NCBI RefSeq assembly: GCF_003034965.1
Contig: NZ_PZKE01000014.1
Coordinates: 1 to 64,000, forward strand
Reading direction: 5' to 3'
DNA length: 64,000 nucleotides
Source: Fuscovulum blasticum DSM 2131
GTDB taxonomy: Bacteria > Pseudomonadota > Alphaproteobacteria > Rhodobacterales > Rhodobacteraceae
Part shown: one piece after another, positions 8,288 to 63,227 of the stretch
Position numbering within the stretch: the first letter of the stretch is position 1
Layout: every line of letters starts with the position of its first letter
The notes under the pieces: generated by a model
What the model was told of the DNA's origin: nothing
What the model saw: only the letters and a program-made list of their open reading frames with translations
Databases searched by the model: none
Position numbers and translations under genes: made by a program

Positions 8288-8296
8288 CGCTGCGTC

Positions 8297-8352
8297 GATT
8301 TCTTTGAAGAAATCTTGCCGGAGCCTTTGAAGGCTCCGGTGCGGAGTTTTTT
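8297..8352 (+). terminator. Two stacked hairpins ending in a T-run downstream of galE
   Basis: Two perfect inverted repeats lie back to back: GATTTCTT/AAGAAATC (8297-8314, 2-base centre) and CCGGAGCCT/AGGCTCCGG (8318-8339) with a TTGA loop. A GTTTTTTG run lies at 8346-8353. The second hairpin looks like an intrinsic terminator for galE. The first may act with it or be a separate element. It lies between convergent genes. Confidence 0.6.
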
Positions 8353-8371
8353 GAAAACGCCGCGGTCTGCG

Positions 8372-9493: not shown

Positions 9494-9630
9494 CGGGTCT
9501 GTCTCCTGCGGGCGGTGTCGGGTGCAGGGTAGGCCCGCCGATGCCCGGCCTGCAAGGGCGGGTCAGGGAACTGGCATGTCGGCGGCCGGGTCTCTAGGTT
9601 GCGGTCAGGCGGATCTGCAGGGAGGCAGGG

Positions 9631-46432: not shown

Positions 46433-46508
46433 GGGGCAGTAGCTCAGTTGGGAGAGCGTATCGTTCGCAATGATAAGGTCAGGGGTTCGATCCCCCTCTG
46501 CTCCACCA
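46433..46508 (+). tRNA. tRNA-Ala (anticodon CGC)
   Basis: 76 bases with encoded CCA. Acceptor GGGGCAG pairs with CTGCTCC and includes the G3:U70 pair that marks alanine tRNAs. D arm GCTC/GAGC, anticodon stem TATCG/TGATA (ending in a G:U pair) with loop TTCGCAA (anticodon CGC, reads GCG), variable AGGTC, T arm AGGGG/CCCCT with TTCGATC. All four helices form. Confidence 0.95.
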
Positions 46509-48422: not shown

Positions 48423-49411
48423 TGGTTCACGAACAGCGTGTCAAGGATGCCGCCTTCGGCAAGGTGCTCGGCCTTGATCTTGTCCCAGCCGCCGAAAACC
48501 TCTTCGACCGTCACCAGCTTCACATCGGGGAAGTCTGCCGCGGTCTCTGCCTTCACGGCCGGATCGTTGACCCGGTAGAAATGCCTGGCAAGGATGCGCT
48601 GACCTTCGGGGCTGTACAGGAATTCGAGATAGGCTTTCGACACCTCTTCCGTGCCCTTCTTTCTGGCATTCTCGGTCACGACCGCCACCGGGAATTCCGC
48701 CAGCAGGCTGAGCGAGGGCGTCACGCGGACAAAGCCCTTGTCGGCGTATTCCTTGGCGATGCCGCCGGTTTCGGCCTCGAACGTGATCAGAACATCGCCG
48801 ATGTCCTTTTCCGCAAAGGTCGTGGTGGCTGCGCGCCCGCCAGTATCGAACACCGGAACGTTCGCGAACAGGGCCTTGACGAACTCTTGCGCCTTGGTTG
48901 CATCGCCGGCGTTCTTGTCCAGCGCATAGGCATAGGCGGCCAGATAGGTATAGCGCGCATTGCCCGAAGTTTTCGGATTGGGGAAGACAACCTTCACATC
49001 CGCGCGGACAAGATCATCCCAGTCCTTGATGCCCTTGGGGTTGTCCTTGCGCACAAGGAACGCCGGCAGCGAGTAATAGGGCGACGCCTCGTTCGGGAAG
49101 GCCTTGCGCCAGTCTGCGTCCAGCAGGCCGCCGGCGGCCAGAACGTCGATGTCGGTCACCTGGTTGAAGGTCACCACGTCAGCCGGCAGCCCCTCCAGAA
49201 TGGCGCGTGCCTGTTTTGACGAACCGGCGTGCGATTGTTCGATCGTAACGTCCTTGCCGGTGGCATCTTTCCAGACCTTTGCGAAGGCGGGGTTCACTTC
49301 GGTGAACAGCTCTCGGGACACGTCATAGGACACGTTCAGGATCGAATCCTGCGCCATAGCCGGCAGCGCAAGGCCCAGGCCAAGGGCTGCGGCAAGAATA
49401 CGGGTTTTCAC
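48419..49411 (-). CDS. Sulfate ABC transporter periplasmic binding protein
   Basis: 330 residues from GTG at 49411, supported by AAGGAG upstream; a longer frame is not used. Signal peptide 1-20 (ILAAALGLGLALPAMA). Mature features LNVSYDVSRELF, QSHAGSSKQARAI, ADVVTFNQVTDIDVLA and NPKTSGNARYTYLAAYAYA match Sbp/CysP proteins and supply the Ser/Gly sulfate-binding residues. Sbp and CysP cannot be separated with confidence here. Confidence 0.94.
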   Translation of the reverse strand: MKTRILAAALGLGLALPAMAQDSILNVSYDVSRELFTEVNPAFAKVWKDATGKDVTIEQSHAGSSKQARAILEGLPADVVTFNQVTDIDVLAAGGLLDADWRKAFPNEASPYYSLPAFLVRKDNPKGIKDWDDLVRADVKVVFPNPKTSGNARYTYLAAYAYALDKNAGDATKAQEFVKALFANVPVFDTGGRAATTTFAEKDIGDVLITFEAETGGIAKEYADKGFVRVTPSLSLLAEFPVAVVTENARKKGTEEVSKAYLEFLYSPEGQRILARHFYRVNDPAVKAETAADFPDVKLVTVEEVFGGWDKIKAEHLAEGGILDTLFVNQ

Positions 49412-50526
49412 GGGAGAGACTCCTTGAGTTCGGAAAGGGGGGCATCGGCAGGAACTGTCGGTCTTGCAGGCGGCGCCGTGGCGCTGCGCGGATCGACAAA
49501 CACGCATCCCGCCTGCACGCGCAGATGAACGGCTTGCCCGACCGCCAGTGCCGTGGCGGTTCGTCTTGGCACCTCGGCGTCCATCTCGACACCGGCGGAT
49601 TCGGTCAGCCGCACCCGCAACAGGGCGCCGGTCGAGGCAAGGTCGGTAATCCGGTAGCGGCCATCTTCGGCCGGAACGGGGGTGATGTCAGAGGCCCGCA
49701 GGAACAGCCGCGCCGGGCCATCGGGCAGCGCGCGGCGGGGCAGGGCGGTTGCGTCCAGCCCCCGCGCCTGAACCCGGCCTGCCTGAAGGGTGACCGGAAG
49801 TTCGACGGTGTGCCCCAGAAACCGCGCCACGAACGGAGAGGCGGGATGATCATAAATCTCGTCGGGCCGACCGATCTGTTCGATCCGGCCGGCACCCATG
49901 ACAACTACGCGATCAGCCAGCTCGAAGGCTTCTTCCTGGTCATGGGTGACAAAGATCGTGGTGGTTCCCGACGCTTCATGGACGTGGCGCAGCCAGCGGC
50001 GCAGGTCGCGCCGGACCTGCGCGTCGAGCGCGCCGAAGGGTTCGTCCAGCAGCAGGATACGGGGCGAGGTTGCCAGTGCCCGCCCCAAGGCAACCCGCTG
50101 GCGCTGTCCGCCGGACAGTTCCGCCGGGTATCTGTCGGCCAGGGTTTCGATCTGCAGGAACTGCAACAGTTCGTTCACCCGGGCGGTGATGGCCGCCGCA
50201 TCGGGGCGGCGGGGGCGGGGCTGAACGGTCAGCCCGAAGGCGATGTTGTCGCGTACCCGCATGTGGGGGAACAGGGCATAATGCTGGAAGACGAACCCCG
50301 TCTCCCGGGTCTGCGGCCGCCGCGCCAGCCAGTCCTCGTCCGCAACGGTCAGCGAACCCGCGTTCGGCCAGTCAAGGCCGGCGATGATCTTCAGCAGCGT
50401 GGTCTTGCCCGACCCGGACGGCCCCAGCAGCGCCACCAGTTCGCGGTCGGCGACGGCAAGATCAATGCCCCTGAGGACTTCGGTCGCACCGAAGCGGCGT
50501 GTCAGGTTTTCGATCACAAGCGCCAT
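49408..50526 (-). CDS. cysA: Sulfate ABC transporter ATPase CysA
   Basis: 372 residues. Walker A GPSGSGKT (35-42), signature LSGGQRQR, Walker B RILLLDEPFGALD and switch His in TIFVTHDQ, followed by a C-terminal TOBE-like part (RLFLRASDITPV). The ATG is preceded by AAGGAGG. It is the first gene of the operon, whereas in enteric bacteria it is the last. GTGA overlap with the binding-protein gene. Confidence 0.95.
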   Translation of the reverse strand: MALVIENLTRRFGATEVLRGIDLAVADRELVALLGPSGSGKTTLLKIIAGLDWPNAGSLTVADEDWLARRPQTRETGFVFQHYALFPHMRVRDNIAFGLTVQPRPRRPDAAAITARVNELLQFLQIETLADRYPAELSGGQRQRVALGRALATSPRILLLDEPFGALDAQVRRDLRRWLRHVHEASGTTTIFVTHDQEEAFELADRVVVMGAGRIEQIGRPDEIYDHPASPFVARFLGHTVELPVTLQAGRVQARGLDATALPRRALPDGPARLFLRASDITPVPAEDGRYRITDLASTGALLRVRLTESAGVEMDAEVPRRTATALAVGQAVHLRVQAGCVFVDPRSATAPPARPTVPADAPLSELKESLP

Positions 50527-50605
50527 GGGGCCTCCTTCAGACCCGGGCAAGGTAACGGCCCGGGGGGCGCAGGGGCAAGGAACGGGGCGAATTGAACTTG
50601 ATGCG

Positions 50606-50630
50606 TGAAAGGGGATAATTTTTCCTTTCA
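50606..50630. promoter_or_regulatory. Inverted repeat upstream of cysA
   Basis: Arms TGAAAGG/CCTTTCA separated by 11 A/T-rich bases, 80-105 bp before the cysA start. It could be an operator for the sulfate operon or overlap its promoter (TTATCC lies in the centre on the minus strand). No regulator can be assigned. Confidence 0.4.
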
Positions 50631-51008
50631 TGCCGCCATTTTCGGTGAAATCTTCTATTCAGGCGAAATTCGGCAGATTTGATGCAGGATTCGCCCACCG
50701 GCGTTCGTGCCATTCCGGGCGTATGGAAAGGTTGCGGACGGGGCCCTGCCCTGCCGCGTTCGGCCCTGGAAAACCCAGCACTTTCAAGCGGATCAGGCCT
50801 GCCTTGCCGGCTCTGCCACTGACAGGGCGCGGGCTGGGAGGCCGTGGTTTCGCGGGATGTCCGGCGAAGGGGCCGGGGGGCTGCGCCGCCCTGCGTTCAA
50901 AGACGCATCCGCAAGGCGGATCCGCCTTCATCAGAGCAGAGTTCATCGCCGGGATGCGCCTGCGAGGCGCGCGCCCGGACTGCCGCGGCAATGGCGGCAG
51001 CAAACCGA

Positions 51009-51037
51009 TTGACCCGAATCAATGTGTATCATATGTT
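51009..51037 (+). promoter_or_regulatory. Candidate sigma-70 promoter of the catabolic operon
   Basis: TTGACC (51009-51014), a 17-base spacer and TATGTT (51032-51037), followed by the dctP ribosome site and ATG at 51081. The local sequence is much more A/T-rich than its surroundings. Confidence 0.5.
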
Positions 51038-51062
51038 GATATGGCGTTTCAATATAAGAAAC
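51027..51062. promoter_or_regulatory. Two candidate operators over and after the -10 region
   Basis: Two inverted repeats: TATCA-5-TGATA (51027-51041), which covers the -10 box, and GTTTC-7-GAAAC (51046-51062), which lies over the likely start of transcription. Such short dyads are the type bound by IclR-family regulators, and an IclR gene is in the operon; binding is inference. Confidence 0.4.
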
Positions 51063-51080: not shown

Positions 51081-52064
51081 ATGAATATCCGATACGGCGC
51101 CTTCGCCGTAATTGCGCTCCTGTGCCCTGCGGCTGGCTGGGCGCAGGACTACACGCTGAAGTTTGGCCACGCCGCGACATCGACGCACCTGTTCCAGGAC
51201 GGGCTGGTGATGTTCGCCGAAAAGGTGGCCGACAAGACCGATGGCAAGGTGAAGGTCGAAGTCTTCGGTGACCGCCAGCTTGGCGATGACAAGCAGCTTC
51301 TGGAGGGGGTGCAGCTTGGAACAATCGACGGTGCGCTGGTGTCAGTGCCGACAATCCCGCTGACGCTGAACGCCCCGGCGTTCGACGCGCTGCAGTTGCC
51401 GTTCCTTGTGCCGAGCTATGACAAGATGGCCGAAGTCCTGTCCTCGGATGTCGGGTCGCAGTTTCTGGATACCTTGACGCCCCTGGGCATCAAGGGGCTG
51501 GGCTATGTCGAGGCGGGACAGCGCCACTTCCTGTCGCGCACCAAGCAGGTGACGACGGTCGATGATTTCAAGGGCCTGAAAACCCGCATCGTTCCCACGC
51601 CACTTCACAAGGCAATCTGGGAAGCGGTTGGCACCAGCCCCATCGGCATGGCCTTCGGCGAGGTGTTCTCGGCGCTGGAAACCGGAACGATCGACGCGGT
51701 CGAGATCAACCTGTCGTCTGCCTATGCCGAAAGCTATTACGAGGCCGCCAAGAACGTGACGCTGACAGGCCATTACTTCTGGCCCGGCGTGCTTATGATG
51801 AGCGGTGCCAAGTTCGACAGCCTGCCGGAAGATGTGCAAAAGGCCATTGCCGAGGCTGCGCATGAAGTCATCGTCGAGCAGTATGCGCTGGCCCGCGATC
51901 AAGAGGCGGAAACTGCCAGAAAGCTGGAAGAAAAGGGCGCGATCATCTCGCAGTTCAGCGAACTGCCCGAGATGCAGGCCCGGGTGCAGCCGGTGGTCGA
52001 TGCCTGGCTGACAAAAGACCCGCTGATCCAGGTCTTCGTTGACGCGGTGCGCGCCACGAACTGA
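51081..52064 (+). CDS. dctP: TRAP transporter substrate-binding protein (DctP type)
   Basis: 327 residues. Signal peptide 1-21 (GAFAVIALLCPAAGWA). Mature protein starts DYTLKFGHAATSTHLFQDG, with GDRQLGDDKQLLEGVQLGTIDG and the conserved Arg motif DFKGLKTRIVPTPLHKAIWEAVGTSP, then EVFSALETGTIDAVE. The Arg normally salt-bridges a carboxylate in the ligand, so an organic acid is the likely cargo. GGGAGGAG precedes the ATG. First gene of the 12-kb operon; 101 bp separate it from dctQ. Confidence 0.95.
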   Translation: MNIRYGAFAVIALLCPAAGWAQDYTLKFGHAATSTHLFQDGLVMFAEKVADKTDGKVKVEVFGDRQLGDDKQLLEGVQLGTIDGALVSVPTIPLTLNAPAFDALQLPFLVPSYDKMAEVLSSDVGSQFLDTLTPLGIKGLGYVEAGQRHFLSRTKQVTTVDDFKGLKTRIVPTPLHKAIWEAVGTSPIGMAFGEVFSALETGTIDAVEINLSSAYAESYYEAAKNVTLTGHYFWPGVLMMSGAKFDSLPEDVQKAIAEAAHEVIVEQYALARDQEAETARKLEEKGAIISQFSELPEMQARVQPVVDAWLTKDPLIQVFVDAVRATN

Positions 52065-52165
52065 TCCGCGCGGGGCGCGGCCAGCCCAAGGCGGCCGCCC
52101 CCCTCTCCGTCCGCATCACTCCGACACGGTTTCCAGCGTGGCCCACGGGCCGCGGCGGGGAAGGT

Positions 52166-52750
52166 GTGTCCGATCACGGGAAACAAGCCATGCGTGCCAT
52201 GCGACGCACATTCGACGCGATCCTTTCGACCTGCCTCATCTGGATGCTGGTTGTTCTGTTGGGGGTGATGTTGGTGCAGATCTTTCTGCGCTACGGGTTT
52301 TCCACTTCGCTGATCTGGGGCGAAGAGGTGTGCCGGTATCTGCTTGTCTGGGTGTCTTTCCTGGGGGCGATCCTGGCCTATGAACGCGGCGAGATCGCAA
52401 GCGTTCCGATGCTGCGCGATGCGCTGCCGCGCCGGCTTGGCCTTGTCCTGGCCATGTTTGCCAATGCCTGCGGCGTGGTGCTGCTGGCTGTGCTGGTCTG
52501 GTACGGCTGCATCTATGCCCATCGTCTTGGGTCGGCGCCAATTCCCGCGATGAAATTCCTGCTGGGCGATCTGTTCGGGCCGGATGTGGCGGTGCCCAGC
52601 ATGTTCTGGATCTATGTCGCGCTGCCTGTGGGCCTGGCCCTGTTCGCGCTGCGGCTGGCGATGGATATTCTGCTCTACGCCCGGATGATGAACCGTGGCC
52701 AACGTGCCTCGGACCTGCGCGACGATCTTGCCCGGGAGATGCACGGATGA
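52166..52750 (+). CDS. dctQ: TRAP transporter small permease (DctQ type)
   Basis: 194 residues with four membrane helices. The family motif WGEEVCRYLLVWVSFLGA is at about 51-68. The GTG at 52166 is a possible start, but ATG at 52190 (MRAMRRTF) gives a more usual length; neither has a strong ribosome site. The stop overlaps dctM by 4 bp. Confidence 0.9.
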   Translation: MSDHGKQAMRAMRRTFDAILSTCLIWMLVVLLGVMLVQIFLRYGFSTSLIWGEEVCRYLLVWVSFLGAILAYERGEIASVPMLRDALPRRLGLVLAMFANACGVVLLAVLVWYGCIYAHRLGSAPIPAMKFLLGDLFGPDVAVPSMFWIYVALPVGLALFALRLAMDILLYARMMNRGQRASDLRDDLAREMHG

Positions 52751-54021
52751 TCCTGTATCTGGGCATTTTCTTCGTTGCGCTGATGATCGGTATGCCCGTT
52801 GCCCTGGGGCTGGGCATGGCCTCGCTGATCTATCTGCTGATCGAGGGGCACGGTCATCTGCTGATGGCCTTCCCGCAGCGCATGATCGCCGGGATCGACA
52901 GTTTCCTTCTGCTGACGATCCCCTTCTTCATCCTGGCCGGAAACCTGATGAGCGCGGCCAACATGACCGGCCATATCGTGCGGTCCGCCCAGCTTTTGGT
53001 CGGGCGCATCAAGGGCGGGCTGGCAATCGTCAACGTGCTGTCAAACTTCCTGCTGTCGGGGGCCAGCGGGGCTGCAACTTCTGAGGCGGCTGCGGTCGGC
53101 GGCATCATGATCCCGCCGATGAAGCGCGATGGCTATGATCCGGCCTATGCGGCCGCGCTGACCGCGACCGGCTCGCTTCTGGGGCCGCTGATTCCGCCGT
53201 CCTTGCCGCTGATCCTGTTCGGTGTGCTGTCGGGCACCTCGATCGGCGATCTGTTCCTGGCGGGGATTGTGCCGGGCATCATCCTTGGCGGGCTGCTGCT
53301 GGTGTACGCCCTTTGGAAAGGGCACCGTGAAAACCACCCCGTCGCCCCCCGCGTGCCGGTGGAAGAGCGGCGCGGCATCCTGATCACGGCCACCCCGGCG
53401 ATCATCATGCCCATCCTGATCGTGGTGGGCATCCGCAGCGGGATCTTCACCCCGACCGAGGCCGCCGGCGTGGCCTGTCTTTATGCGCTGGCCTGCGGCT
53501 TCTTCATCTATCGCTCGCTGAACTGGACAAAGCTGCGGAAGTGCTTCTACGACACCGCCACCATGTCTTGCGGCGTGATGCTGGTGGTGGCGATGGCCAG
53601 CATGACGGGCTTTGTACTGGGGATCGAAAGCCTGCCGCAAAAGGTTGCCGCGCTGATCCTGGGGCTGACAGAGAACCCGGTTCTGCTGGTGATCCTGCTG
53701 AACGTGATCCTGCTGATCCTGGGGCTTTTCCTGGAGCCGCTGGCTGCGATGGTCCTCATCATGCCGATCCTGAATGCGCTGGCGCCGACCATCGGCATGG
53801 ATTCGGTGCAGATGGGCGTGATGGTTGTCCTGAACCTGATGATCGGCCTGTGCACGCCTCCGGTGGGGCTGGTCCTGTTCATCGTCAGTTCCATCGCGCG
53901 CAGCCCGCTTCAGGCCGTGGCGCGGGCATCGCTTCCCATGCTGTGCCTGTGCCTGATCGTTCTGTTTCTCGTTGCGGCGGTTCCAGGCATCACGCTTGGC
54001 ATCCCGGCTTTGTTGAAGTGA
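52747..54021 (+). CDS. dctM: TRAP transporter large permease (DctM type)
   Basis: 424 residues, about twelve membrane helices. PFFILAGNLMSAANMT, SGASGAATSEAAAVGGIMIPPMKRDGYDPAYAAALTA and PTEAAGVACLYAL are DctM hallmarks. With DctP and DctQ it imports a carboxylate using a sodium gradient. The start overlaps dctQ; 7 bp separate it from the regulator gene. Confidence 0.96.
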   Translation: MILYLGIFFVALMIGMPVALGLGMASLIYLLIEGHGHLLMAFPQRMIAGIDSFLLLTIPFFILAGNLMSAANMTGHIVRSAQLLVGRIKGGLAIVNVLSNFLLSGASGAATSEAAAVGGIMIPPMKRDGYDPAYAAALTATGSLLGPLIPPSLPLILFGVLSGTSIGDLFLAGIVPGIILGGLLLVYALWKGHRENHPVAPRVPVEERRGILITATPAIIMPILIVVGIRSGIFTPTEAAGVACLYALACGFFIYRSLNWTKLRKCFYDTATMSCGVMLVVAMASMTGFVLGIESLPQKVAALILGLTENPVLLVILLNVILLILGLFLEPLAAMVLIMPILNALAPTIGMDSVQMGVMVVLNLMIGLCTPPVGLVLFIVSSIARSPLQAVARASLPMLCLCLIVLFLVAAVPGITLGIPALLK

Positions 54022-54028
54022 GGGAACT

Positions 54029-54799
54029 ATGACTGTGGAACTCGACAAATCAGTGAACCAGTCCACCCAGATGGCCTTCATGGTGATCGAAGTGATGGCC
54101 GAGATCGGCAAGCCGGTGGCGCTGTCCGAACTGTCGCGGCGGATCGGATCGTCAAAGGTTCGCGTGTTCCGGTTTCTGCGCACGCTGCTGTCGCTGGGCT
54201 ATGTGCTGCAAGACCCGGAAACCGACAAATACCGGCTGTCCTACAAGCTGTATCACCTGGGGCAGGCGCTGGCGGATTCCACCGATATTCTGCGCGAGGC
54301 CCGGCCCGTGATGGTGGAGTTGCGCGATACGACCGGCTTCACGGTGTCGCTTTCGCAGATGGAAGCAACGGGAATGCGTATCCTGGACATGGTGCGCACC
54401 GAGCAGCCGGTTGAAATCGTCACCCGCCCCGGCGCGCTGCTGGACTTTCATGCCTCGGCGCAGGGCAAGATTGCCCTGGCCTTCGGCGGGGCACATCTGG
54501 CCGAAGGGCCGCTGCGCCAATGGACGGGCGAAACCCCGACAGATCGCGCGATCGTGGCTGCGGACGTTCTGGCCGCGCGCAAGCTGGGCTGGGCCGAGGC
54601 CCCCAATCAGACGCTGCAAGGGGTGACCGCGGTCTCGGCCCCTGTGTTCGACAGGGACGGCGCCTTCATCGCCACACTGACCATCGCCGGGCCGACGATG
54701 ATCATCGGCACCCCCCCGGCCGAGCGCTTCATCGAGGCGCTGATCGGGGCGGCCCGCAAAATCTCCATCAATCTTGGAAACACGGACCAACACACATGA
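54029..54799 (+). CDS. IclR-family transcriptional regulator
   Basis: 256 residues. The N-terminal winged helix (about 15-70) includes KPVALSELSRRIGSSKVRVFRFLRTL and GYVLQDPETDKYRLSYKLYHLG. The effector domain has the FHASAQGKIALAF motif and the PVFDRDGAFIATLTIAGP end. IclR proteins bind small acids as effectors. It lies between the transporter and the enzymes and probably controls the operon it sits in, possibly at the dyads near 51027-51062. The stop overlaps hyuA by 4 bp. Confidence 0.94.
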   Translation: MTVELDKSVNQSTQMAFMVIEVMAEIGKPVALSELSRRIGSSKVRVFRFLRTLLSLGYVLQDPETDKYRLSYKLYHLGQALADSTDILREARPVMVELRDTTGFTVSLSQMEATGMRILDMVRTEQPVEIVTRPGALLDFHASAQGKIALAFGGAHLAEGPLRQWTGETPTDRAIVAADVLAARKLGWAEAPNQTLQGVTAVSAPVFDRDGAFIATLTIAGPTMIIGTPPAERFIEALIGAARKISINLGNTDQHT

Positions 54800-56871
54800 C
54801 AAGATACTCTCTGGCGGTCGACATAGGCGGCACTTTTACAGACGCCGTGCTGCTGGTCGACGATGGCCGCACCTATGTGGACAAGACCCTGACCACGCAT
54901 GGCAACCTGTTGGAAGGGTTCTTCCGGGGGGTGAACCTTGTGATGGGGCGCGCGGGAATCAAGCCTGCCGACGTGAACGATGTGATCGTTCATGCAACGA
55001 CCGTCGTCACCAACGCCCTGATCGAGCGGAAGGGCCCGCCGGTGGGGCTGATCCTGACAAAGGGGTTCACGGATATCCTCTATATCCGGGACGAGCATCG
55101 CTATGACATGTACGATCCCCAGATCGAATTCGCCGAACCCCTGATCCCCCGCGAACGGACCTGGGCGCTGGATGAACGTGTTCTGGCCGACGGTTCGGTC
55201 GAGACTGCGGCGCAGGTGGCGGAGATCGAGGCCATCGCCAGGGACTGTCTGGCGCGGGGCATTGAATCTGTCGGCGTCAGCCTGATCAACGCCTATCGCA
55301 ACGGTGTGAACGAGGCGCTGGTGGCCGAGGTCTTTGCCCGCGTGGCGCCGGAGATCTTCGTTTCGCTGTCGTCAGAGATCGCGCCGCAGATGCGGGAATA
55401 TCTGCGCACGTCGACCGTTGCGATCAATGCCTATACCGTGCCGATCACCCGGCCCTATCTGAACGCGCTGATTGCAGAGCTGGAAAAGCAGGGCTTTTCG
55501 CAGCAGCCGCTGATCATGCTGTCAAATGGCGGTGTGATCGGGGCGGGCAGGGCAGGAACGCTGCCCGTGCGCATGATCGAAAGCGGCCCGGCGGCCGGGG
55601 CGCTGGTGGCCTGCTATTTCTCGCGCATCTTCGGGTTGCCGGACCTGATCTCGTTCGACATGGGCGGAACCACGGCCAAGGCCTGCATGATCCAGAACCA
55701 CGAACCGCTGGTGATAGGCACCTTCGAGGTGGATCGCCGCTACCGTTTCAAGCCCGGTTCGGGGATGCCAATCACGGTGCCGTCAATCGACATGATCGAG
55801 ATCGGTGCCGGCGGCGGGTCGATCGCCTGGGTTGATGAACTGGGCTTGCTGCGGACCGGACCGGAAAGCGCCGGGTCGATCCCCGGTCCGGTCAGCTATG
55901 GCCGGGGCGGCCAGGAGCCCTGCGTCACCGATGCCGATGTCGTTCTGGGTATTCTGGACCCCGACCGCTTTCTGGGCGGCGACATGAAGCTGGATGCGGC
56001 GGCGGCCAGGGCCGCGATTGCCAGGCTTGGCGCAAAGATCAATCTGACGGCCGAACAGACCGCCTGGGGTATCTATGAAGTGGTGTGCGAGCAGATGGCC
56101 TCGGCCGCGCGCACCCATGCCACGGACCGGGGGGTCGACTATCGCGGCCTGCCGATGCTGGCCTTTGGCGGTGCGGGCCCCGTTCACGCCTGCCTTGTGG
56201 CGGATCTGATTGAATCGAAGCAGGTCATCTATCCCCCGCTCGCCTCGGTCTTGTCGGCCTTTGGCACCCTGGTGACGCCTGCGCAGATTGACCTGGTGCG
56301 AAGCCAGCTTTGCCCCATGGATCGGCTTGATCCCGATGCGGCCCGCGGCTTTGTCTCTCAGATGACCGAAGAGGGCACGGCGGCCCTGAAGGAGGCCGGC
56401 CTTGCCGAGGCGGACATCAGCTTCGTCTTCGGTGCGGACCTGCGCTATCTTGGCCAGCAGTCCGAACTGCGGATCGAACTGCCCTTCGATCCGCGCAGCG
56501 GTCTGAACACCGGCATCATGCGCGAGATCTTCGAGCGCGAGTATGTCGCGCAATATGGCCTGAAGCTGGCCGATATGGCGATCGAACTGGTGAACTGGCA
56601 TGTCACGGCCAGGGGCAGCCTGCCTGACCGCGCCGCGGCGCATGTGATCAGGGGGGGCAGCCGCCCCACGCCGCGCAGCCGTGTCGTTCATTTCCGCGGC
56701 AAGCCCACGGAAACCGCCGTCTACACCCGTTCGGAGCTGATGGAGGGCGAGGTGATCGCCGGTCCCGTCATCGTGGAAGAGCGCGAAACCACGATCTTCG
56801 TCCTGCCGGGATGGACGATCCGCCTGCACCCCAACGGCAGCCTTGTTGCCGACAAAATGACGGAGCTTTGA
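54796..56871 (+). CDS. HyuA-type ATP-dependent hydrolase/carboxylase subunit
   Basis: 691 residues, N-methylhydantoinase A/5-oxoprolinase A/acetone carboxylase beta family. Two nucleotide-binding motifs of the actin-like fold are DIGGTFTD (9-16) and FDMGGTTAK near 295, with HATTVVTNALIERKG at about 70-84 and the IEIGAGGGSIAWVD region. The family couples ATP to hydrolysis of cyclic amides (hydantoins, oxoproline) or to carboxylation of ketones (acetone, acetophenone), always with a HyuB partner. Which reaction applies cannot be told from this sequence. It overlaps the regulator and is 2 bp from hyuB. Confidence 0.9.
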   Translation: MTRYSLAVDIGGTFTDAVLLVDDGRTYVDKTLTTHGNLLEGFFRGVNLVMGRAGIKPADVNDVIVHATTVVTNALIERKGPPVGLILTKGFTDILYIRDEHRYDMYDPQIEFAEPLIPRERTWALDERVLADGSVETAAQVAEIEAIARDCLARGIESVGVSLINAYRNGVNEALVAEVFARVAPEIFVSLSSEIAPQMREYLRTSTVAINAYTVPITRPYLNALIAELEKQGFSQQPLIMLSNGGVIGAGRAGTLPVRMIESGPAAGALVACYFSRIFGLPDLISFDMGGTTAKACMIQNHEPLVIGTFEVDRRYRFKPGSGMPITVPSIDMIEIGAGGGSIAWVDELGLLRTGPESAGSIPGPVSYGRGGQEPCVTDADVVLGILDPDRFLGGDMKLDAAAARAAIARLGAKINLTAEQTAWGIYEVVCEQMASAARTHATDRGVDYRGLPMLAFGGAGPVHACLVADLIESKQVIYPPLASVLSAFGTLVTPAQIDLVRSQLCPMDRLDPDAARGFVSQMTEEGTAALKEAGLAEADISFVFGADLRYLGQQSELRIELPFDPRSGLNTGIMREIFEREYVAQYGLKLADMAIELVNWHVTARGSLPDRAAAHVIRGGSRPTPRSRVVHFRGKPTETAVYTRSELMEGEVIAGPVIVEERETTIFVLPGWTIRLHPNGSLVADKMTEL

Positions 56872-56873
56872 AG

Positions 56874-58430
56874 ATGGATGGCGTAGAACTTCAGATCCTG
56901 TGGTCGAACCTGATCGGGATCGTTTCGGAACAGGCCCGCGCCCTGCAACGTATCGCCTTTTCGCCCATCGTCCGCGAGGCGGGCGATCTGGCAAACGGTC
57001 TGTTCGATGCCCGCGCCCGCATGGTTGCGCAGGCGGTGACCGGCACGCCGGGCCACATCAACTCGCTTGCCGCCGCGGCGCGCAACCTGCTTGCCCATGT
57101 CGATGCAGACAAGCTGCAACCGGGTGATGTGCTGATCACCAATGACCCCTGGATGTCGGCGGGCCATTTCTTCGACATCACGATCCTGTCGCCGATCTTT
57201 CGCGGTGAAAGGCTTATCGGCTATGCCGGATCGACCATTCACCACACCGATATCGGCGGCTATGGCATCGGGTCCGGTGCGCGCGACCTGCATGAGGAAG
57301 GGCTGTGGATTCCCGTCCTCAAACTTTACGAGGCAGGGGTGCGCAATGAGACGCTGTTCTCGATCATCACCCGGAACGTGCGCACGCCCGATGCGTTGCT
57401 GGGCGACCTTGGGGCACAGGTTTCATCCGGCATGATCGCATCGCAGCGGCTGAATGCGCTGTGCGACCGTTACGGGCTGGATGACATCGAGACCCTGGCA
57501 GACGAGATCATCAACAGATCGGAAGCCGCCACGCGCGACTCGATCCGCGCGCTGCCGGGGGGCACGTTCCACGGGTCTTCCACCTTTGACGTGCCGGGTG
57601 GGGACCGGATCACGCTGAAGACGGCCGTGACGATTGATAACGTGGCCGGCGAGATCACGGTCGATTTCGCGGGGTCGTCGGGCCGCAGCCCGCGCGGCAT
57701 CAACGTGGTGCCCGCCTATACGCAAGCCTATGCGACCTTTGCCATCCGTTCGACCCTGAACCCGGATCTGCCCAACAATGCAGGCTCGCTTTCGCCAATC
57801 AGGCTGAAGCTGCCGGACAACTGCATCGTGAACGCAACCTATCCGTCGCCGGTGAACGCGCGCCATGTGGTTGGCATGTATGTGCCCTTCCCGATCCTGA
57901 ATGCGCTGGCCCAGGTGGTGCCTGACAAGGTGGTTGCCGAAGGCTCTGGCGCGGTGTGGACGGTGCAGATCCAAGGGCAGGATGCCGAGGGGCGGCCCTT
58001 TACCTCGTCCATGTTCAACTATTCGGGCGGAATGGGCGCGCGCGCGACCAAGCCGGGCATTTCGGCGGTCTGTTATCCCACCGGGGTTTCGGCGGTTCCG
58101 GTTGAGGTGCTGGAAGCGGCCTATCCGATTGTCTTTACCTGCAAGGAACTGGAGCTGGGATCGGGCGGGGCAGGGCGCCAGCCCGGGGGCAACGGGCAGC
58201 GCATCGGGTTCCGTATGAGAACGACGCAACCCTGGCTTCTGAACACCGTGCCCAGCCGTCTGCATGAGGCCCCCCAAGGCCTTGACGGCGGCCAGCCGGG
58301 GCGTGCCGGCCAGTTCCTGGTGAATGGCACCGCGGCGGTCCTGTCGGGCAAGACCGACATGAAGCCGGGGGACGAGATCATGATGTTCACCCCGGGCGGC
58401 GGCGGCTTTGGCGCGCCCGAGCCGGTCTGA
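56874..58430 (+). CDS. HyuB-type partner subunit
   Basis: 518 residues, N-methylhydantoinase B/acetone carboxylase alpha family. ITNDPWMSAGHFFDITILSPIF at about 83-104 (metal-ligand region with Asp and His), GYAGSTIHHTDIGGYG, SSTFDVPGGDRI, and the C-terminal GSGGAGRQPGGNGQRI and FTPGGGGFGAP glycine motifs. It binds HyuA to form the active complex. A third, small subunit (as AcxC or ApcB in ketone carboxylases) is not evident; the cupin that follows could take that place (speculation). Confidence 0.9.
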   Translation: MDGVELQILWSNLIGIVSEQARALQRIAFSPIVREAGDLANGLFDARARMVAQAVTGTPGHINSLAAAARNLLAHVDADKLQPGDVLITNDPWMSAGHFFDITILSPIFRGERLIGYAGSTIHHTDIGGYGIGSGARDLHEEGLWIPVLKLYEAGVRNETLFSIITRNVRTPDALLGDLGAQVSSGMIASQRLNALCDRYGLDDIETLADEIINRSEAATRDSIRALPGGTFHGSSTFDVPGGDRITLKTAVTIDNVAGEITVDFAGSSGRSPRGINVVPAYTQAYATFAIRSTLNPDLPNNAGSLSPIRLKLPDNCIVNATYPSPVNARHVVGMYVPFPILNALAQVVPDKVVAEGSGAVWTVQIQGQDAEGRPFTSSMFNYSGGMGARATKPGISAVCYPTGVSAVPVEVLEAAYPIVFTCKELELGSGGAGRQPGGNGQRIGFRMRTTQPWLLNTVPSRLHEAPQGLDGGQPGRAGQFLVNGTAAVLSGKTDMKPGDEIMMFTPGGGGFGAPEPV

Positions 58431-58450
58431 CAAAGGGCGAGGAGCAAGAC

Positions 58451-58846
58451 ATGAGCGAAGACCTGCAACCCTTTCGTATGCCGATCAAATGGGAAGACCT
58501 GCCCCGCTTTCCGGTGCGGGACCATATCAGCCGCGCCGGATTTCGCGGCGAGGATGTGCTTCTGGTGATGAACTGGCTGGAAAAGGGCATGACCCTTGGA
58601 ATGCACAAGCATCCGTTCGAACAGATTGCCGTCGTGCTGACGGGCCGGATGCGCTGGACGGTGGGAGAGCAGACCTTTGAGGTTGGCGCGGGCGAGGTAC
58701 TGCGCGTGCCGCCCGATGTGATGCACGGCGGGATTCCGATTTCGGATGAGGTGGTGATGAACCTCGATATCTTCTGCCCCATCCGCGAGGATTACCTGGA
58801 GATCGTCGAACACCAGGCTGCCGACTTTGCGGTCAAGGGAGGCTGA
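58451..58846 (+). CDS. Cupin-domain protein
   Basis: 131 residues, one conserved cupin barrel. The metal motif is MHKHPFEQ (H52, H54, E57/Q58) with the later His in PPDVMHGG (H92). No signal peptide. It may be a small isomerase, a metal-dependent subunit or a ligand-binding partner for the HyuAB complex. Ribosome site GAGGAGC. It is 20 bp from hyuB and 1 bp from the aldolase gene. Confidence 0.85.
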   Translation: MSEDLQPFRMPIKWEDLPRFPVRDHISRAGFRGEDVLLVMNWLEKGMTLGMHKHPFEQIAVVLTGRMRWTVGEQTFEVGAGEVLRVPPDVMHGGIPISDEVVMNLDIFCPIREDYLEIVEHQAADFAVKGG

Positions 58847-58847
58847 G

Positions 58848-59630
58848 ATGGGCTTTCCCGCCGTTCTGGCAGATTTCGCCCCGACCTTGCGTCAGGGCGG
58901 GCTGCATCTTTCGACCTTCTGCCAGTTTCCGGATGCGAATGTGATCGAGGCCCTGGCCAAGACCAGGCTGGAGTCCTTCGTGCTGGATATGCAGCATGGC
59001 ATGTTCGACGAGGCATCGGTCCTGGCCTGCGTGGCGGCGGGTGCGCTGGAAGGCAAGCCGGTGCTGGTGCGCCTGCCGGTGGATGCCGGCGGGCTTGCGT
59101 CACGGGTGCTCGATTTCGGCGCGGCGGGGGTTGTGTGCCCGATGGTCAACACCGCCGAAGACGCCAGACGGCTGGTCAGCTATCTGAAGTTCCCGCCGGT
59201 CGGCGCCCGAAGCTGGGGGCCGCGCCGGGCCATTCCGATCACCGGCCAGACGGCGCCCGGCTATCTTGCCCGGGCCAATAACCTGACGCTGGCCTTCGCC
59301 ATGATCGAAACACGGCAGGCCCTGGACAATCTGGATGCCATTCTGGCCGTTCCGGGCATCGACGGGGTTTTCGTCGGTCCGTCCGATCTGTCGGTGTCGT
59401 TGTCCGACGGAGCAACGCTGGACAGCGCCGATGTGGCCCCGGCGCTGGATCTGGTTGCCGCAAAGGCCAGGGCGGCGGGGAAGATTGCAGGCATTTTCGC
59501 GATCAACCCGGACTATGCGGCCGATTGCGCGGCGCGGGGCTACAGCTTCATCGCGCTGATGCAGGATGCAATGTTCATGGCGCAGGCGGCGGATGCCTCG
59601 GTCGCGGCGGTCCGGGGCAAGACCGGATGA
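58848..59630 (+). CDS. HpcH/HpaI-family aldolase/lyase
   Basis: 260 residues, PEP/pyruvate TIM-barrel family. FVLDMQHGMFDEASV near 43-57 is the HpcH motif; LVRLPVDAGG, VVCPMVNTAEDARRLVSYLKFPP, the Glu ligand in AMIETRQALDNLDAIL and FVGPSDLSVS supply catalytic Arg, His and divalent-metal ligands. It does retro-aldol cleavage of 2-oxo-4-hydroxy acids to pyruvate-type products or a related lyase step. It overlaps the next gene by ATGA. Confidence 0.88.
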   Translation: MGFPAVLADFAPTLRQGGLHLSTFCQFPDANVIEALAKTRLESFVLDMQHGMFDEASVLACVAAGALEGKPVLVRLPVDAGGLASRVLDFGAAGVVCPMVNTAEDARRLVSYLKFPPVGARSWGPRRAIPITGQTAPGYLARANNLTLAFAMIETRQALDNLDAILAVPGIDGVFVGPSDLSVSLSDGATLDSADVAPALDLVAAKARAAGKIAGIFAINPDYAADCAARGYSFIALMQDAMFMAQAADASVAAVRGKTG

Positions 59631-60514
59631 GCCGCCCCGTCATCCTGACCGCCTGTATCAATGGCGGGCGGCCGGATGCGGCCGCCCTGAACCCGAACCT
59701 TCCCGTCACCCCTGCACAGATTGCCGCGGCTGTTGCCGAGGCGGCCGCCTTGGGCGCTGCGGTGGCGCATGTTCATGTGCGCGATCCGAAGGATGGAAGG
59801 CCATCGAACGACCCCGGCCTTTGGGCGGAAACGGTTGCGCGGATTCGCGCCACCGGCGCGGACATCCTGCTGAACCTCAGCGCCTCGATGGACGGGCTGC
59901 TTTATCTGGATGACGAGGCGGGGTTTGCGCTCTTGCCCGCCAGCACATTGCGCCCCGTCTCGGGCCGCACGGCCCATGTGATTGCCGCGCGGCCCGAGAT
60001 TGGCACCATGGACTGCGGAACCTTTGCCATGGGGCCGGCCATTCATGTGGCCCGGATCGACGATCTTCGTGAAATGGCCCGCCTTTATGCCAGGGCGGGA
60101 ATCCGGGCCGAAGTCGAATGTTTTGACTTCGGTCACCTTGAAATCGCGCGCCGGCTGGTGGCGGAAGGCTTGTTGGGCGCGCGGCCGTTTCTGCAGATCT
60201 GCCTTGGCACCGGATATGGCGGCGCACCCGCCACCCGGGCCGCCCTGCTGGCAATGTACGAGCGGATTCCCGAAGGGGCTGTCTGGGCCGCCTTTGCCGC
60301 CGCAGAGGAAAATCTGTGGGTCGCGCGTGAAGCGGTTGCCTTGGGCGGGCATGTCCGCGCCGGTCTGGAGGACACGCTGTTTGACAGCGCCGGTCTGCCG
60401 ACCACCAACGCCGCCCTGCTGACGACAGCGGTTGCAATCATCACCGGCGCGGGCGGCAGGCCCGCCAAACCGGCCGAAGCGCGGCAGATTCTTGATCTGC
60501 CCGCAAATGCCTGA
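59627..60514 (+). CDS. Beta-keto acid cleavage enzyme (BKACE, DUF849)
   Basis: 295 residues. The zinc site HVHVRDP (H48, H50) on strand 2, GFALLPASTLRP and GTMDCGTFA, then AEVECFDFGH with a further metal Glu, and QICLGTGYGGAPAT are BKACE features. Family members condense a beta-keto acid with acetyl-CoA to give acetoacetate and a new acyl-CoA (Kce of lysine degradation is the prototype). The presence with thiolase and an acyl-CoA ligase fits breakdown of a beta-keto acid. Overlaps the aldolase by 4 bp. Confidence 0.9.
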   Translation: MSRPVILTACINGGRPDAAALNPNLPVTPAQIAAAVAEAAALGAAVAHVHVRDPKDGRPSNDPGLWAETVARIRATGADILLNLSASMDGLLYLDDEAGFALLPASTLRPVSGRTAHVIAARPEIGTMDCGTFAMGPAIHVARIDDLREMARLYARAGIRAEVECFDFGHLEIARRLVAEGLLGARPFLQICLGTGYGGAPATRAALLAMYERIPEGAVWAAFAAAEENLWVAREAVALGGHVRAGLEDTLFDSAGLPTTNAALLTTAVAIITGAGGRPAKPAEARQILDLPANA

Positions 60515-60534
60515 GACCAGGACAGGGGAACAGA

Positions 60535-61695
60535 ATGGGCGAGTCATTCATTACGGGCTGGGGCCACACGAAGTTTGGCCGGTTTGACGGAGATCTGGAG
60601 GCGCTGATCCTGACGGCGGCCCGTGAAGCGATTGACCACGCCGGGATCACCCCCGACGCGATCGACGCCATCTGGATCGGGCATTTCAACGCCGGCATGG
60701 TGCATGAGGCATTTCCGTCGTCTCTGGTGCTGAACCTTGATCCGGCGATGCGCTTCACGCCCGCCACGCGCTGCGAAAATGCCTGCGCCTCGGGGTCTGC
60801 CGCCGTCTATTCCGCGCGTGAGGCGATCCGCGCGGGTTCCATCAAAAGGGCGCTGGTCATCGGCGTGGAAAAGATGACGGCCAAAGACACAGCGGGCGTG
60901 ACCGAGGCCCTTGGCGGGGCCTCTTACCAGCGCGAAGAGGCCGGCACGTCTTTCCCGCAGGTGTTTGCCCGCTTTGCACAGGCCTATTCGCAGGCCTATG
61001 GCGATTGCAGCGAGACCCTGGCCCGTATCGCGGCAAAGAACCATGCCAATGCCCTGAACAACCCGTTGGCGCAGTTGCAAAAGGCGCTGAGTGTTGAGTT
61101 CTGCAATACCGTCTCGGACAAGAACCCGATGATTGCCGCGCCCTTGCGGATGACGGATTGCTCGCTGATTTCGGATGGTGCTGCGGCGCTGGTCCTGACG
61201 GATGAAAGCCTGCTGGGTGAACATGCGCGCGCCGTGGGGTTTCGCGCTGCGGTGCAGGTGAATGATTTCATGCCGATGTCGCGCCGCACCCTGCTGGACT
61301 TTGACGGTCCCGCCGAGGCCTTCCGCCGCGCCTATGCGGCGGCCGGGATCACGGCGGCAGACCTGTCCTGCGCCGAGGTGCATGACTGCTTCACGATTGC
61401 GGAGCTTCTGACCTATGAGGCGATGGGGATAACGCCCAGGGGCCGGGGTCGGCAGGCCATCGAGGAGGGCACTGTTCTGGCCGGGGGCCGCCTGCCGGTG
61501 AATCTGTCGGGCGGCCTGAAGGCGAAGGGGCATCCCGTCGGGGCCACGGGCGTTTCCATGCATATGATGGGCGCGCGGCAGGTTCTGGGGGAAGCGGCAC
61601 AGATGCAGGTGCCGGGTGCCGAGCTGGCCTGCGTGTTCAACATGGGCGGGGCCGCCGTGGCGAATTATGTTTCCATTCTTGAGGCGGCAAAGTGA
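60535..61695 (+). CDS. Thiolase (SCP2-thiolase/acetyl-CoA acetyltransferase-like)
   Basis: 386 residues. Nucleophile Cys in TRCENACASGSAA (C84), a second active-site motif EVHDCFTIAELLTYEAMG and the His motif GGLKAKGHPVGATG. It should cleave a beta-ketoacyl-CoA with CoA to acetyl-CoA and a shorter acyl-CoA. Thiolases of this type often have a small Zn-ribbon/OB-fold partner; none is seen here. ATG after GACAGGGGAAC. Its stop overlaps the ligase GTG. Confidence 0.93.
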   Translation: MGESFITGWGHTKFGRFDGDLEALILTAAREAIDHAGITPDAIDAIWIGHFNAGMVHEAFPSSLVLNLDPAMRFTPATRCENACASGSAAVYSAREAIRAGSIKRALVIGVEKMTAKDTAGVTEALGGASYQREEAGTSFPQVFARFAQAYSQAYGDCSETLARIAAKNHANALNNPLAQLQKALSVEFCNTVSDKNPMIAAPLRMTDCSLISDGAAALVLTDESLLGEHARAVGFRAAVQVNDFMPMSRRTLLDFDGPAEAFRRAYAAAGITAADLSCAEVHDCFTIAELLTYEAMGITPRGRGRQAIEEGTVLAGGRLPVNLSGGLKAKGHPVGATGVSMHMMGARQVLGEAAQMQVPGAELACVFNMGGAAVANYVSILEAAK

Positions 61696-63227
61696 ACCCC
61701 GCGGTCTGGCTGCAGCGGGCGGCGTGGCGATGGCCCGATCGCCCGGCCCTGTTCTCTGGCGCCACAGAGGTTGCCAGCTATGCAGAGTTCCGGGCGCGGG
61801 CCGGTGCGCTTGCGGCGGGGCTTGTCGGGCAGGGTATCGGGCCCGGAGACCGGGTTGCGCTGTTTCTTGCCAACCGGCCGGATTACCTGGTGGCCATGCA
61901 GGCGATCTGGTGGATCGGGGCCGTTACGGTGCCCGTGAACTTCAAACTGCACCCAAAGGAGGCCGCCTTTATCCTGGACCATTCCGGGGCCAGGCTGTGC
62001 TTTGCCGATGGGCATCACGCGGGCGAACTGGCGGGCTTGGCCCCCACCACCCGCGTCCTGGACATGGATTCGGCGGCATTTGTCGATCTTGTCGCCGATG
62101 CGCCGCCGCCGCCCTTGCATCCGACGGCCCAGGACGACACCGCCTGGCTGTTCTACACCTCGGGCACGACGGGGCAGCCAAAGGGTGTCATGCTCAGCCC
62201 TGCCAATCTTCAGGCCATGTGCCTTGGCTATCTTGCCGATGTCGATGCCGTGTCGGCGGCGGATGCCAAGGTCTATGCCGCGCCGATGTCACACGGGGCC
62301 GGGCTTTATCAGTTCATGTATCTGATGTGCGGCGCCCGGCATGTTGTGCCGGCTTCGGGCGGATTTGACGGCGACGAGATCCTTGATCTGGCGGCGCGGC
62401 TTGGAAATCTGTGCTTCTTTGCCGCCCCCACCATGATCCGCCGCCTGATCGCGGCAGCCCGCGCGCGCGGCAGCCGGGGCGACGGGGTTCGGACCATCGT
62501 TTATGGCGGCGGACCCATGTATCTGGCCGACATTCGTGATGCGATGGCCCTGTTCGGCCCCCGTTTCGTGCAGATCTACGGGCAGGGGGAAACCCCGATG
62601 ACCATAACCGTGCTGACCCGCGCTGCGCATGTCGAGGCGCTTGCCGCCGGGCCGCAGGATGCAACCCACAGCCGGCGTCTGGCCTCGGTGGGTGTGGCAA
62701 ATGCAGGGTGCGAAGTGGCGGTTCTGGGCCGGGATGGCGCCGCCTTGCCCCCGAACGCGATGGGGGAGATTGCCGTGCGCGGACCATCTGTCATGAAGGG
62801 GTATTGGCAGGACAGGGCGGCCACGGCAGCGGCCATCCGCGATGGCTGGCTGTACACCGGCGATGTCGGTGCCCTTGATGAGGCGGGCTTTCTCACGCTG
62901 CATGACCGTTCGAAGGATGTGATCATTTCCGGCGGGACCAACATCTATCCGCGCGAAGTGGAAGAGGCGCTGTTGACCCATCCGGCGGTGGCAGAGGTTT
63001 CCGTGATCGGGCAAGCCGATGCGGAATGGGGAGAGATTGTTGTTGCCTGCGTCGTGCCCGAAGAGGGCGTGCAGGTTGACGACCGGACCCTTGACGCCCA
63101 TTGCCTGACCCAGATCGCGCGGTTCAAGCGGCCTAAGCACTATGTCTGGCTGACAGACCTGCCAAAGAATGCCTACGGCAAGGTGCTGAAAACCGAACTG
63201 CGCAAGGCCCTGACGGGCGTTCAGTAG
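61692..63227 (+). CDS. Acyl-CoA ligase (AMP-forming)
   Basis: 511 residues, ANL superfamily. LFYTSGTTGQPKGVML near 152-167, YGQGETPM near 296 (normally YGxTE), YTGDVGALDEAGFLTLHDRSKD and the C-terminal lysine in KNAYGKVLKT. It activates the carboxylic acid handled by the operon to its CoA thioester. The Gln-Gly in YGQGE rather than YGxTE is seen in part of the benzoate/malonyl-type ligases. Start is GTG at 61692, overlapping the thiolase stop (GTGA). Last gene of the operon that I can recognise. Confidence 0.92.
   Translation: MNPAVWLQRAAWRWPDRPALFSGATEVASYAEFRARAGALAAGLVGQGIGPGDRVALFLANRPDYLVAMQAIWWIGAVTVPVNFKLHPKEAAFILDHSGARLCFADGHHAGELAGLAPTTRVLDMDSAAFVDLVADAPPPPLHPTAQDDTAWLFYTSGTTGQPKGVMLSPANLQAMCLGYLADVDAVSAADAKVYAAPMSHGAGLYQFMYLMCGARHVVPASGGFDGDEILDLAARLGNLCFFAAPTMIRRLIAAARARGSRGDGVRTIVYGGGPMYLADIRDAMALFGPRFVQIYGQGETPMTITVLTRAAHVEALAAGPQDATHSRRLASVGVANAGCEVAVLGRDGAALPPNAMGEIAVRGPSVMKGYWQDRAATAAAIRDGWLYTGDVGALDEAGFLTLHDRSKDVIISGGTNIYPREVEEALLTHPAVAEVSVIGQADAEWGEIVVACVVPEEGVQVDDRTLDAHCLTQIARFKRPKHYVWLTDLPKNAYGKVLKTELRKALTGVQ

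Follow-up and report, generated by a model that had tools for sequence, protein, structure and literature searches.

Several described systems resemble parts of the locus analysed here, an eleven-gene putative catabolic operon around a hyuAB gene pair of Fuscovulum blasticum DSM 2131, located in the first 64 kb (hereafter the window) of a 95-kb contig from a 3.59-Mb draft genome; the articles describing these systems are cited here from excerpts. The best-scoring named relatives of the window HyuA and HyuB are the ATP-dependent cyclic amidohydrolases CapAB (caprolactamase) and N-methylhydantoinase. The window pair resembles CapAB in its two-subunit organisation and keeps both the ATP motifs and the metal tetrad of HyuB, but the window scores lie below the caprolactamase cut-offs, a Lys takes the place of CapA Asp302, and the neighbouring genes encode a tripartite ATP-independent periplasmic (TRAP) transporter, a cupin and a ligase. 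The acetophenone carboxylase operon, apcABCDE-bal, likewise combines HyuA/HyuB-type subunits with a coenzyme A (CoA) ligase gene, but its extra subunits are absent from the window operon, and the window sequences score lower against it. In the actinobacterial ARO microcompartment locus (meta-cleavage of 2-aminophenol), HyuAB of unassigned role accompanies an IclR-type regulator in a catabolic locus (PMC10470539), whereas the shell proteins and meta-cleavage enzymes that this excerpt reports have no counterpart among the eleven window genes. The deoxyribonate cluster is a catabolic operon with an enzyme of the beta-keto acid cleavage enzyme (BKACE) family, in which the excerpted text names a short-chain dehydrogenase/reductase (SDR), a lactonase and major facilitator superfamily transporters, but no HyuAB, TRAP transporter, cupin or aldolase (PMC6365646). 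No description of the window operon itself was found in term searches of the open-licence PubMed Central literature; within the literature searched, the families are known, while their combination, the palindrome and the residue changes described below look new.

We propose that the locus is one IclR-controlled transcription unit that imports one carboxylate, which HyuAB activates with ATP (estimated probability about 0.6). All eleven genes lie on the plus strand between 51081 and 63227, in the order dctP-dctQ-dctM-iclR-hyuA-hyuB-cupin-hpcH-DUF849-thiolase-ligase (Table 1). An earlier note on this DNA had counted ten genes in one direction, of which the direction stands and the count does not; every gene family that it named was found by Pfam or NCBIfam matches on that strand, at the positions in Table 1. 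It had also described tight junctions except for about 100 bp after dctP, and the measured values agree: four junctions overlap by 4 bp (dctQ-dctM, iclR-hyuA, hpcH-DUF849 and thiolase-ligase), the others are short gaps (dctM-iclR 7 bp, hyuA-hyuB 2 bp, hyuB-cupin 20 bp, cupin-hpcH 1 bp, DUF849-thiolase 20 bp), and dctP and dctQ are separated by 101 bp, a value that presumes the GTG start of dctQ at 52166 rather than an alternative start at 52190.

A search of named genomes with the DUF849 protein led to three loci with nearly the whole operon, in Aliihoeflea (L011), Mesorhizobium ephedrae (L012) and Mesorhizobium sediminum (L013), and a fourth was found in genome G1023 (L075). All four hold ten of the eleven genes in the window's order, with the thiolase alone missing from the operon; thiolases 54–56% identical to the window's occur elsewhere in the genomes of the three named loci, and in M. 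sediminum hyuB, the DUF849 gene and the ligase gene each match as two pieces, in a frameshift-like manner. Identity to the window proteins is high (HyuA 89–90%, HyuB 91–93%, cupin 93–95%, DctP 78–83%, DUF849 73–78%), and a HyuA tree of 36 rows groups the window with these four loci with support of 100/100. Because ten genes recur in the same order in four loci, the comparison indicates that the operon is more than chance adjacency. The joint conservation of the gene set, absence of which the earlier note had named as fatal to its proposal, thus holds for ten genes together, while the full eleven occur in the window only; the TRAP importer belongs to the conserved set as proposed, with its genes present in all four relatives. 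Within the window's own order, a DUF849 match at E ≤ 1e-60 was found in 11 of 390 genomes, the ten non-self matches being merely 40–45% identical, and an ortholog was present in 3 of 297 genomes of the Mesorhizobium family, including those of L011 and L012. The two orders appear to be distinct, because genome G1334, labelled as sharing no rank below class with the window, has the contig coordinates of G826, which is placed in the Mesorhizobium order. Horizontal transfer of the operon would be the simple reading of this distribution.

We then compared the wider family of HyuA relatives with at least 49% identity. These are sparse in the class sample (6 of 385 genomes) and the phylum sample (2 of 398; the window's own is counted in both), and were found in 16 of 397 genomes of the Mesorhizobium order as well as on plasmids of Bosea and Embleya. 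After exclusion of L094 (on a 3.3-kb contig), of G826 (the same place as G1334) and of a second Embleya plasmid (H3), 28 relatives were compared, some of which end at contig edges (e.g. L069, L071 and L106), with 19 control loci of 40–45% HyuA identity, a non-random set that comprises 18 loci near the top of the class-sample match list plus L027 and includes some short contigs. Within 9 kb of HyuA, the relatives against the controls carried HyuB in 27 against 19 loci, IclR in 27 against 1 (Fisher p = 8e-11), a cupin in 25 against 0 (p = 2e-10), the ligase in 20 against 1 (p = 5e-6), HpcH in 12 against 3, DctP in 12 against 3, DctM in 12 against 6, DUF849 in 4 against 1 and the thiolase in 3 against 0. 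Two of the 20 ligases (L025 and L026) are merely 30–33% identical; without them, ligases of at least 48% identity remain in 18 of 28 loci (p = 5e-5 against the controls). DUF849 and thiolase occur together only in the window among 29 loci.

Gene order in these relatives points to a modular family. Four loci with HyuA 71–73% identical (L100–L103) read dctP-cupin-dctQ-dctM-iclR-hyuA-hyuB-hpcH-(thiolase)-ligase, with a thiolase of 61–62% identity in L100 and L103, and a thiolase adjoins the ligase in three relatives overall. L104 and L105 (HyuA 66–68%) carry dctP-cupin-dctQM-iclR-hyuAB alone, despite some 6–7 kb of sequence beyond hyuB, and L106 follows this layout as far as hyuA, where its contig ends. 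Eight loci with HyuA 55–58% identical (L107, L109–L113, L025 and L097) combine iclR-hyuAB and the cupin with genes that group with the branched-chain-type ATP-binding cassette (ABC) transporter of L025, and in seven of the eight a ligase of 49–52% identity comes next. Two aldolase lineages occupy the same slot: the window-clade aldolases are 28–36% identical to those of the other groups, which are 37–80% identical among themselves. A class II aldolase thus seems to be wanted repeatedly in this slot, and the window clade, alone among the 29 loci in having a DUF849 gene, may have a different lower pathway. Taken from gene content, the core of the family is an importer, IclR, HyuAB and the cupin, usually with the ligase. 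As separate observations, the HyuAB relative on an Embleya plasmid (L026, Actinomycetota; 6677–9605) lies beside a 2-oxoacid:ferredoxin oxidoreductase-type pair and a weakly similar acyl-CoA ligase, and a glyoxalase/vicinal oxygen chelate (VOC)-type protein follows hyuB or the cupin in L072 (13753–14328) and L073 (10612–11103), the two copies being 67% identical to each other (Pfam match on the L073 copy).

Directly before dctP, the window carries a predicted sigma-70 promoter followed by a GTTTC-N7-GAAAC palindrome. The promoter is the one promoter-like site between 50600 and 64000, where shuffled sequences lead one to expect 1.9; such a scan proves nothing alone, and the weight is carried by position and conservation. 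The TTGAC element and the palindrome region downstream of it are kept in the window and its four close relatives, and the sequence further upstream diverges. The pattern GTTTY-N7-RAAAC matches once in the 64-kb window, at the palindrome, and it turned up in 6 of 100 shuffled versions. Of the 12 TRAP-bearing relatives, 11 carry the palindrome upstream of dctP, the exception being L115, which has no palindrome and whose dctPQM come after cupins, and five of the eight ABC-type relatives carry it upstream of iclR. Overall, 19 of 28 relatives and 1 of 19 controls have it (p = 2e-5). A form with an AT centre is present in 21 of 25 genomes searched, and in 9 of the 11 genomes of L011–L013, L075 and L100–L106 it is limited to this operon, the remaining two having it at no place and at two places. 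Terminator-like sites on both strands are fewer than expected by chance (5 found against 8.9). The gene arrangement and the conserved promoter-palindrome block fit one transcription unit, and we predict that the operon's own IclR protein binds the palindrome.

A different reading would divide the locus into two unrelated halves that share a promoter, a transport-HyuAB salvage unit and an aldolase-DUF849-thiolase-ligase unit. L104 and L105, with neither aldolase nor ligase near hyuAB, would suit it, as would the divergent window-clade aldolase and the restriction of DUF849 to that clade. Against it stand the frequency of the ligase in relatives as compared with controls, and the evidence of L070 and L072: L070 has one copy of the palindrome separating a transporter gene from the ligase and another ahead of hyuA, and in L072 the palindrome separates the ligase from the cupin-hpcH-iclR-hyuAB run, so that the ligase would be tied to the same control. 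We therefore regard two halves as improbable. In L072, a palindrome also occurs at 13623, upstream of the glyoxalase/VOC-type gene.

Several observations weigh against a single IclR-controlled unit with a dedicated importer. The enrichment of HpcH and dctP is weak (12/28 against 3/19 each, p = 0.06) and dctM is not enriched (12/28 against 6/19, p = 0.55). Moreover, the 28 relatives share kinship, so that all these p-values overstate the contrast. The palindrome is missing from nine of the 28, and its count followed a discovery made in the upstream sequences of the window and 11 relatives of TRAP type; outside this discovery set, 8 of the other 17 relatives and 1 of the 19 controls have it (p = 0.006). 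The plain GTTTC-N7-GAAAC form occurs at seven places in the window genome, and dctM, hyuB and the cupin gene contain three terminator-like matches on the plus strand.

A many-gene regulon under the palindrome was considered and rejected, the AT-centred form being found at two places in the window genome, the second inside a predicted open reading frame. Compared with regulators of defined target, the window IclR stayed below every curated cut-off (BhcR 121.3 bits against 350, KdgR 118.3 against 275, PcaR 93.5 against 284.75). Elsewhere, on contig C10 of genome G1415 (L160/L161), a stretch of about 26 kb with two iclR genes and a TRAP transporter contains five IclR-like palindromes, and a 44% identical DUF849 gene lies nearby. 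The stretch looks like further IclR-controlled operons, and its palindromes are probably the sites of other regulators, because the iclR genes there are just 26–29% identical to the window's.

In the pathway that we favour, the IclR protein would control a single transcript from the palindrome between the promoter and dctP, and DctPQM would import one small carboxylate. Using ATP, HyuA would phosphorylate the imported acid (or bicarbonate), and metal-bound HyuB would open the acid; the likeliest reaction is hydrolysis of a cyclic amide or of a similarly stable carbonyl compound. A neighbouring step such as an isomerisation would fall to the metal-type cupin, the ligase would make a CoA ester, and the aldolase, thiolase and DUF849 protein would carry out C–C cleavages of the products.

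Two separate genes and short subunits mark a hydrolase rather than a ketone carboxylase (PMC5214803), and the window HyuAB is indeed encoded by two genes (691 and 518 amino acids) with no third subunit gene among the eleven. Consistently with a lactamase or hydantoinase, HyuA carries the ATP motifs and HyuB the metal tetrad Asp38/His98/Asp101/His123, the roles of which are taken from PMC8453981. The proteins stay below the caprolactamase cut-offs of 1000 bits (NF050156 and NF050157; HyuA 461.1 and HyuB 171.4 bits), and for HyuA the CapA model gives 461 bits where ApcC gives 241. One residue counts against the favoured reading: CapA Asp302, described as conserved, corresponds to Lys281 of the acetophenone carboxylase subunit Apc-alpha' (PMC8453981), and the window HyuA has Lys295 there in place of the lactamase Asp. 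Each of the five solved chains listed, the carboxylases among them, has Asp at this position, whereas the Lys-bearing motif DMGGTTAK is found in every aligned HyuA row, controls included; these rows were gathered with the window query and are thus biased toward its own branch, and some represent one place present in two loci. No characterised member was found for this large Lys-bearing branch. On balance, we consider hydrolysis rather than carboxylation an even bet for the HyuAB step.

The carboxylation alternative, which stands close to the chain drawn in the earlier note, would have HyuAB carboxylate an imported keto acid at the expense of ATP. The resulting beta-keto acid would undergo cleavage by the DUF849 protein and acetyl-CoA, or it would be activated by the ligase and then split by the thiolase, as in acetophenone degradation. 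It draws on the encoding of acetophenone carboxylase beside a CoA ligase (PMC5214803, PMC4729919), on the contact between thiolase and ligase genes in three relatives, and on Lys295 itself, which lies where Lys281 is placed (PMC8453981) in Apc-alpha', a subunit thought to phosphorylate bicarbonate (PMC5214803). The features of ketone carboxylases (Apc/Acx) are missing, however: there is no gamma-subunit gene among the eleven, HyuB with its 518 residues is smaller than Apc-beta (75 kDa) or Acx-beta (about 720 residues; PMC5214803), and the two Apc models give HyuA 241 and 194 bits against 461 with CapA. The thiolase and the DUF849 gene, moreover, both lie outside the lasting core, and we hold this alternative to be unlikely. 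The earlier idea of HyuAB, BKACE, thiolase and ligase as one beta-keto acid pathway is weakened accordingly, because DUF849 (4/28) and thiolase (3/28) are peripheral in the family, and the loss of the CoA clamp described below speaks against it as well.

In a further alternative, HyuAB would act on an oxidised N-heterocycle and open its lactam, as happens when indoleacetate is degraded, and the cluster would be a lower pathway for aromatic or heterocyclic acids. The Aromatoleum aromaticum family member, a gamma-lactamase of indoleacetate metabolism, is a precedent (PMC5214803), and some relatives have suitable neighbours: a P450 in L070, Rieske and LigB-type dioxygenase genes in L072, and TauD-type and SDR genes in L069 and L072 (64% identity each), with an SDR also in L070. 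Against this, the eleven window genes include no oxygenase, the oxygenase and dehydrogenase neighbours vary from locus to locus, and the P450 has no adjacent palindrome, all of which makes this a long shot compared with the single carboxylate unit that we favour.

The DUF849 protein is a clear family member by Pfam (Table 1). His48, His50 and Glu248, which we take to be the zinc ligands, and Glu164 are kept in the window and its four orthologs, and Arg244 is kept in the window; the described BKACEs CcaKce and PdKce and the divergent BsfD share all five. We likewise take Glu14 of CcaKce to be a substrate residue; Arg15 of the window protein had been considered, by alignment with it, as a sign of a charged substrate, and this was dropped when HMMER gave Arg15 and MAFFT Pro16. 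The Glu equivalent to Glu164 is the catalytic base in BKACE (PMC11961710), and Arg226 and Lys254 of BsfD are reported to hold the CoA adenosine (PMC12871164). The window and its four orthologs differ at precisely this clamp, having Glu227 and Ala255, a pair found together in the window clade only: all 15 other rows (12 genomic and 3 solved) have a basic residue, Lys or Arg, at the second clamp site, and at the first site 12 of them have Arg and 3 have Ala. Every BKACE would presumably need both clamp residues; because the DUF849 protein lacks both, acetyl-CoA-dependent cleavage of a beta-keto acid should not be assumed. It also matches the cis-epoxysuccinate hydrolase 5zmy (E = 8e-18), an enzyme with no need of CoA to judge by its name, so that a CoA-independent role is possible. 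The window clade could not be placed in any of the three BKACE groups described for negatively charged, positively charged and hydrophobic substrates (PMC4922564), and it should not be annotated as 3-keto-5-aminohexanoate cleavage enzyme.

Two further residue arguments were rejected. The Arg lost at position 227 had been taken for the catalytic Arg of CcaKce, but numbering of the chains shows that this Arg is kept as Arg244 and that position 227 matches the CoA-contact Arg226 of BsfD. Tyr145 of CcaKce is replaced by Phe166, which was set aside as proof of other chemistry: Phe occurs in all 12 non-orthologous genomic rows, in 3c6c and in BsfD, and is weakly diagnostic. The Tyr is stated as general for BKACE sequences in a 2026 preprint (PMC12871164, excerpt), a statement that may be too broad. 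The DUF849 paralogs L001 and L015–L024 (one from the window genome and ten from its order) have Phe in 11 of 11.

In the family, a cupin gene, a gene for an IclR switch and an importer for acids nearly always accompany HyuAB of this branch. We raise as a tentative, rather doubtful extension that the Lys-bearing HyuAB branch carries out an undescribed ATP-dependent reaction (the opening or carboxylation of an acid other than a classical lactam), that in the window clade it feeds a DUF849 zinc enzyme that acts without acetyl-CoA, and that the operon encodes an undescribed catabolic pathway. What had been a vague catabolic operon becomes a defined and testable family, marked by an importer, by an operator-like sequence that its members share and by an uncharacterised branch of HyuAB, and its DUF849 clade is flagged against that annotation as cleavage enzyme. 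Once found, the DctP ligand would help to give a function to genes that by default carry the name hydantoinase or oxoprolinase.

Table 1. Positions of the operon genes and predicted control elements in the window, with the evidence for each.
Feature	Position	Strand	Evidence
Predicted sigma-70 promoter TTGACC-17-TATGTT	51009..51037	+	directly before dctP
Palindrome GTTTCAATATAAGAAAC, GTTTC-N7-GAAAC, predicted operator of the operon's IclR protein	51046..51062	.	between promoter and dctP
dctP, TRAP solute-binding protein	51081..52064	+	TIGR00787 over cut-off
dctQ, TRAP small permease	52166..52750	+	position; weak YiaM match below cut-off; 73–75% identity in L011, L012, L013, L075
dctM, TRAP large permease	52747..54021	+	TIGR00786 388.6 bits (cut-off 268.45)
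iclR, IclR-family regulator	54029..54799	+	Pfam IclR_C and HTH_IclR above cut-off
hyuA, ATP-binding subunit, 691 aa	54796..56871	+	Pfam Hydantoinase_A 276.5 bits; DIGGTFTD (residue 9), DMGGTTAK (288), GSIPGP (360)
hyuB, metal-site subunit, 518 aa	56874..58430	+	Pfam Hydantoinase_B 476.4 bits; Asp38, His98, Asp101, His123
Cupin	58451..58846	+	Pfam Cupin_2; invariant His52, His54, Gln58, His92 (16-row alignment)
hpcH, class II (HpaI-type) aldolase	58848..59630	+	Pfam HpcH_HpaI; best solved match 6r62
DUF849/BKACE-family protein, altered CoA clamp (Glu227, Ala255)	59627..60514	+	PF05853 245.0 bits (cut-off 24.8)
SCP2-type thiolase, PRK07516 subfamily	60535..61695	+	NF005704 602.9 bits (cut-off 412)
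AMP-forming acyl-CoA ligase, without specific assignment	61692..63227	+	Pfam AMP-binding

The remaining proteins were assigned to families rather than to substrates. Three adjacent genes encode the TRAP importer, dctP and dctM by models over cut-off and dctQ by position and a weak match. DctP is an ordinary TRAP binding protein (Arg148, Arg169 and Asn210 invariant in 12 rows) to which no ligand could be assigned; its 63–67% identity to the DctP proteins of L100–L106 suggests one ligand common to these loci. Matches of the cupin to solved structures are weak and mixed (4e2g, BacB and KdgF among them). The aldolase, whose best solved match 6r62 is a hydroxyketoacid aldolase, belongs to its Pfam superfamily and stays below the curated cut-offs of HpaI (133.4 against 368.8 bits) and GarL (96.4 against 406.75 bits). 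The thiolase exceeds the PRK07516 subfamily cut-off, and the ligase reached no NCBIfam cut-off among the 25 matches listed.

Genes downstream of the operon were rejected as members, since by gene grouping they do not lie beside it in the relatives. This stretch (L074; contig C14 of genome G000, about 64.6–79.3 kb) looks catabolic in itself, with a class III aminotransferase, two flavin adenine dinucleotide (FAD) amine oxidases, two Rieske ring-hydroxylating-type oxygenases, an ABC ATPase with a TOBE domain and an amidohydrolase. Upstream of the operon promoter, four minus-strand genes (46729–50631) presumably encode a sulfate/thiosulfate ABC transporter (binding protein, two permeases and ATPase), and the window's sole tRNA, tRNA-Ala with anticodon CGC, lies at 46433–46508.

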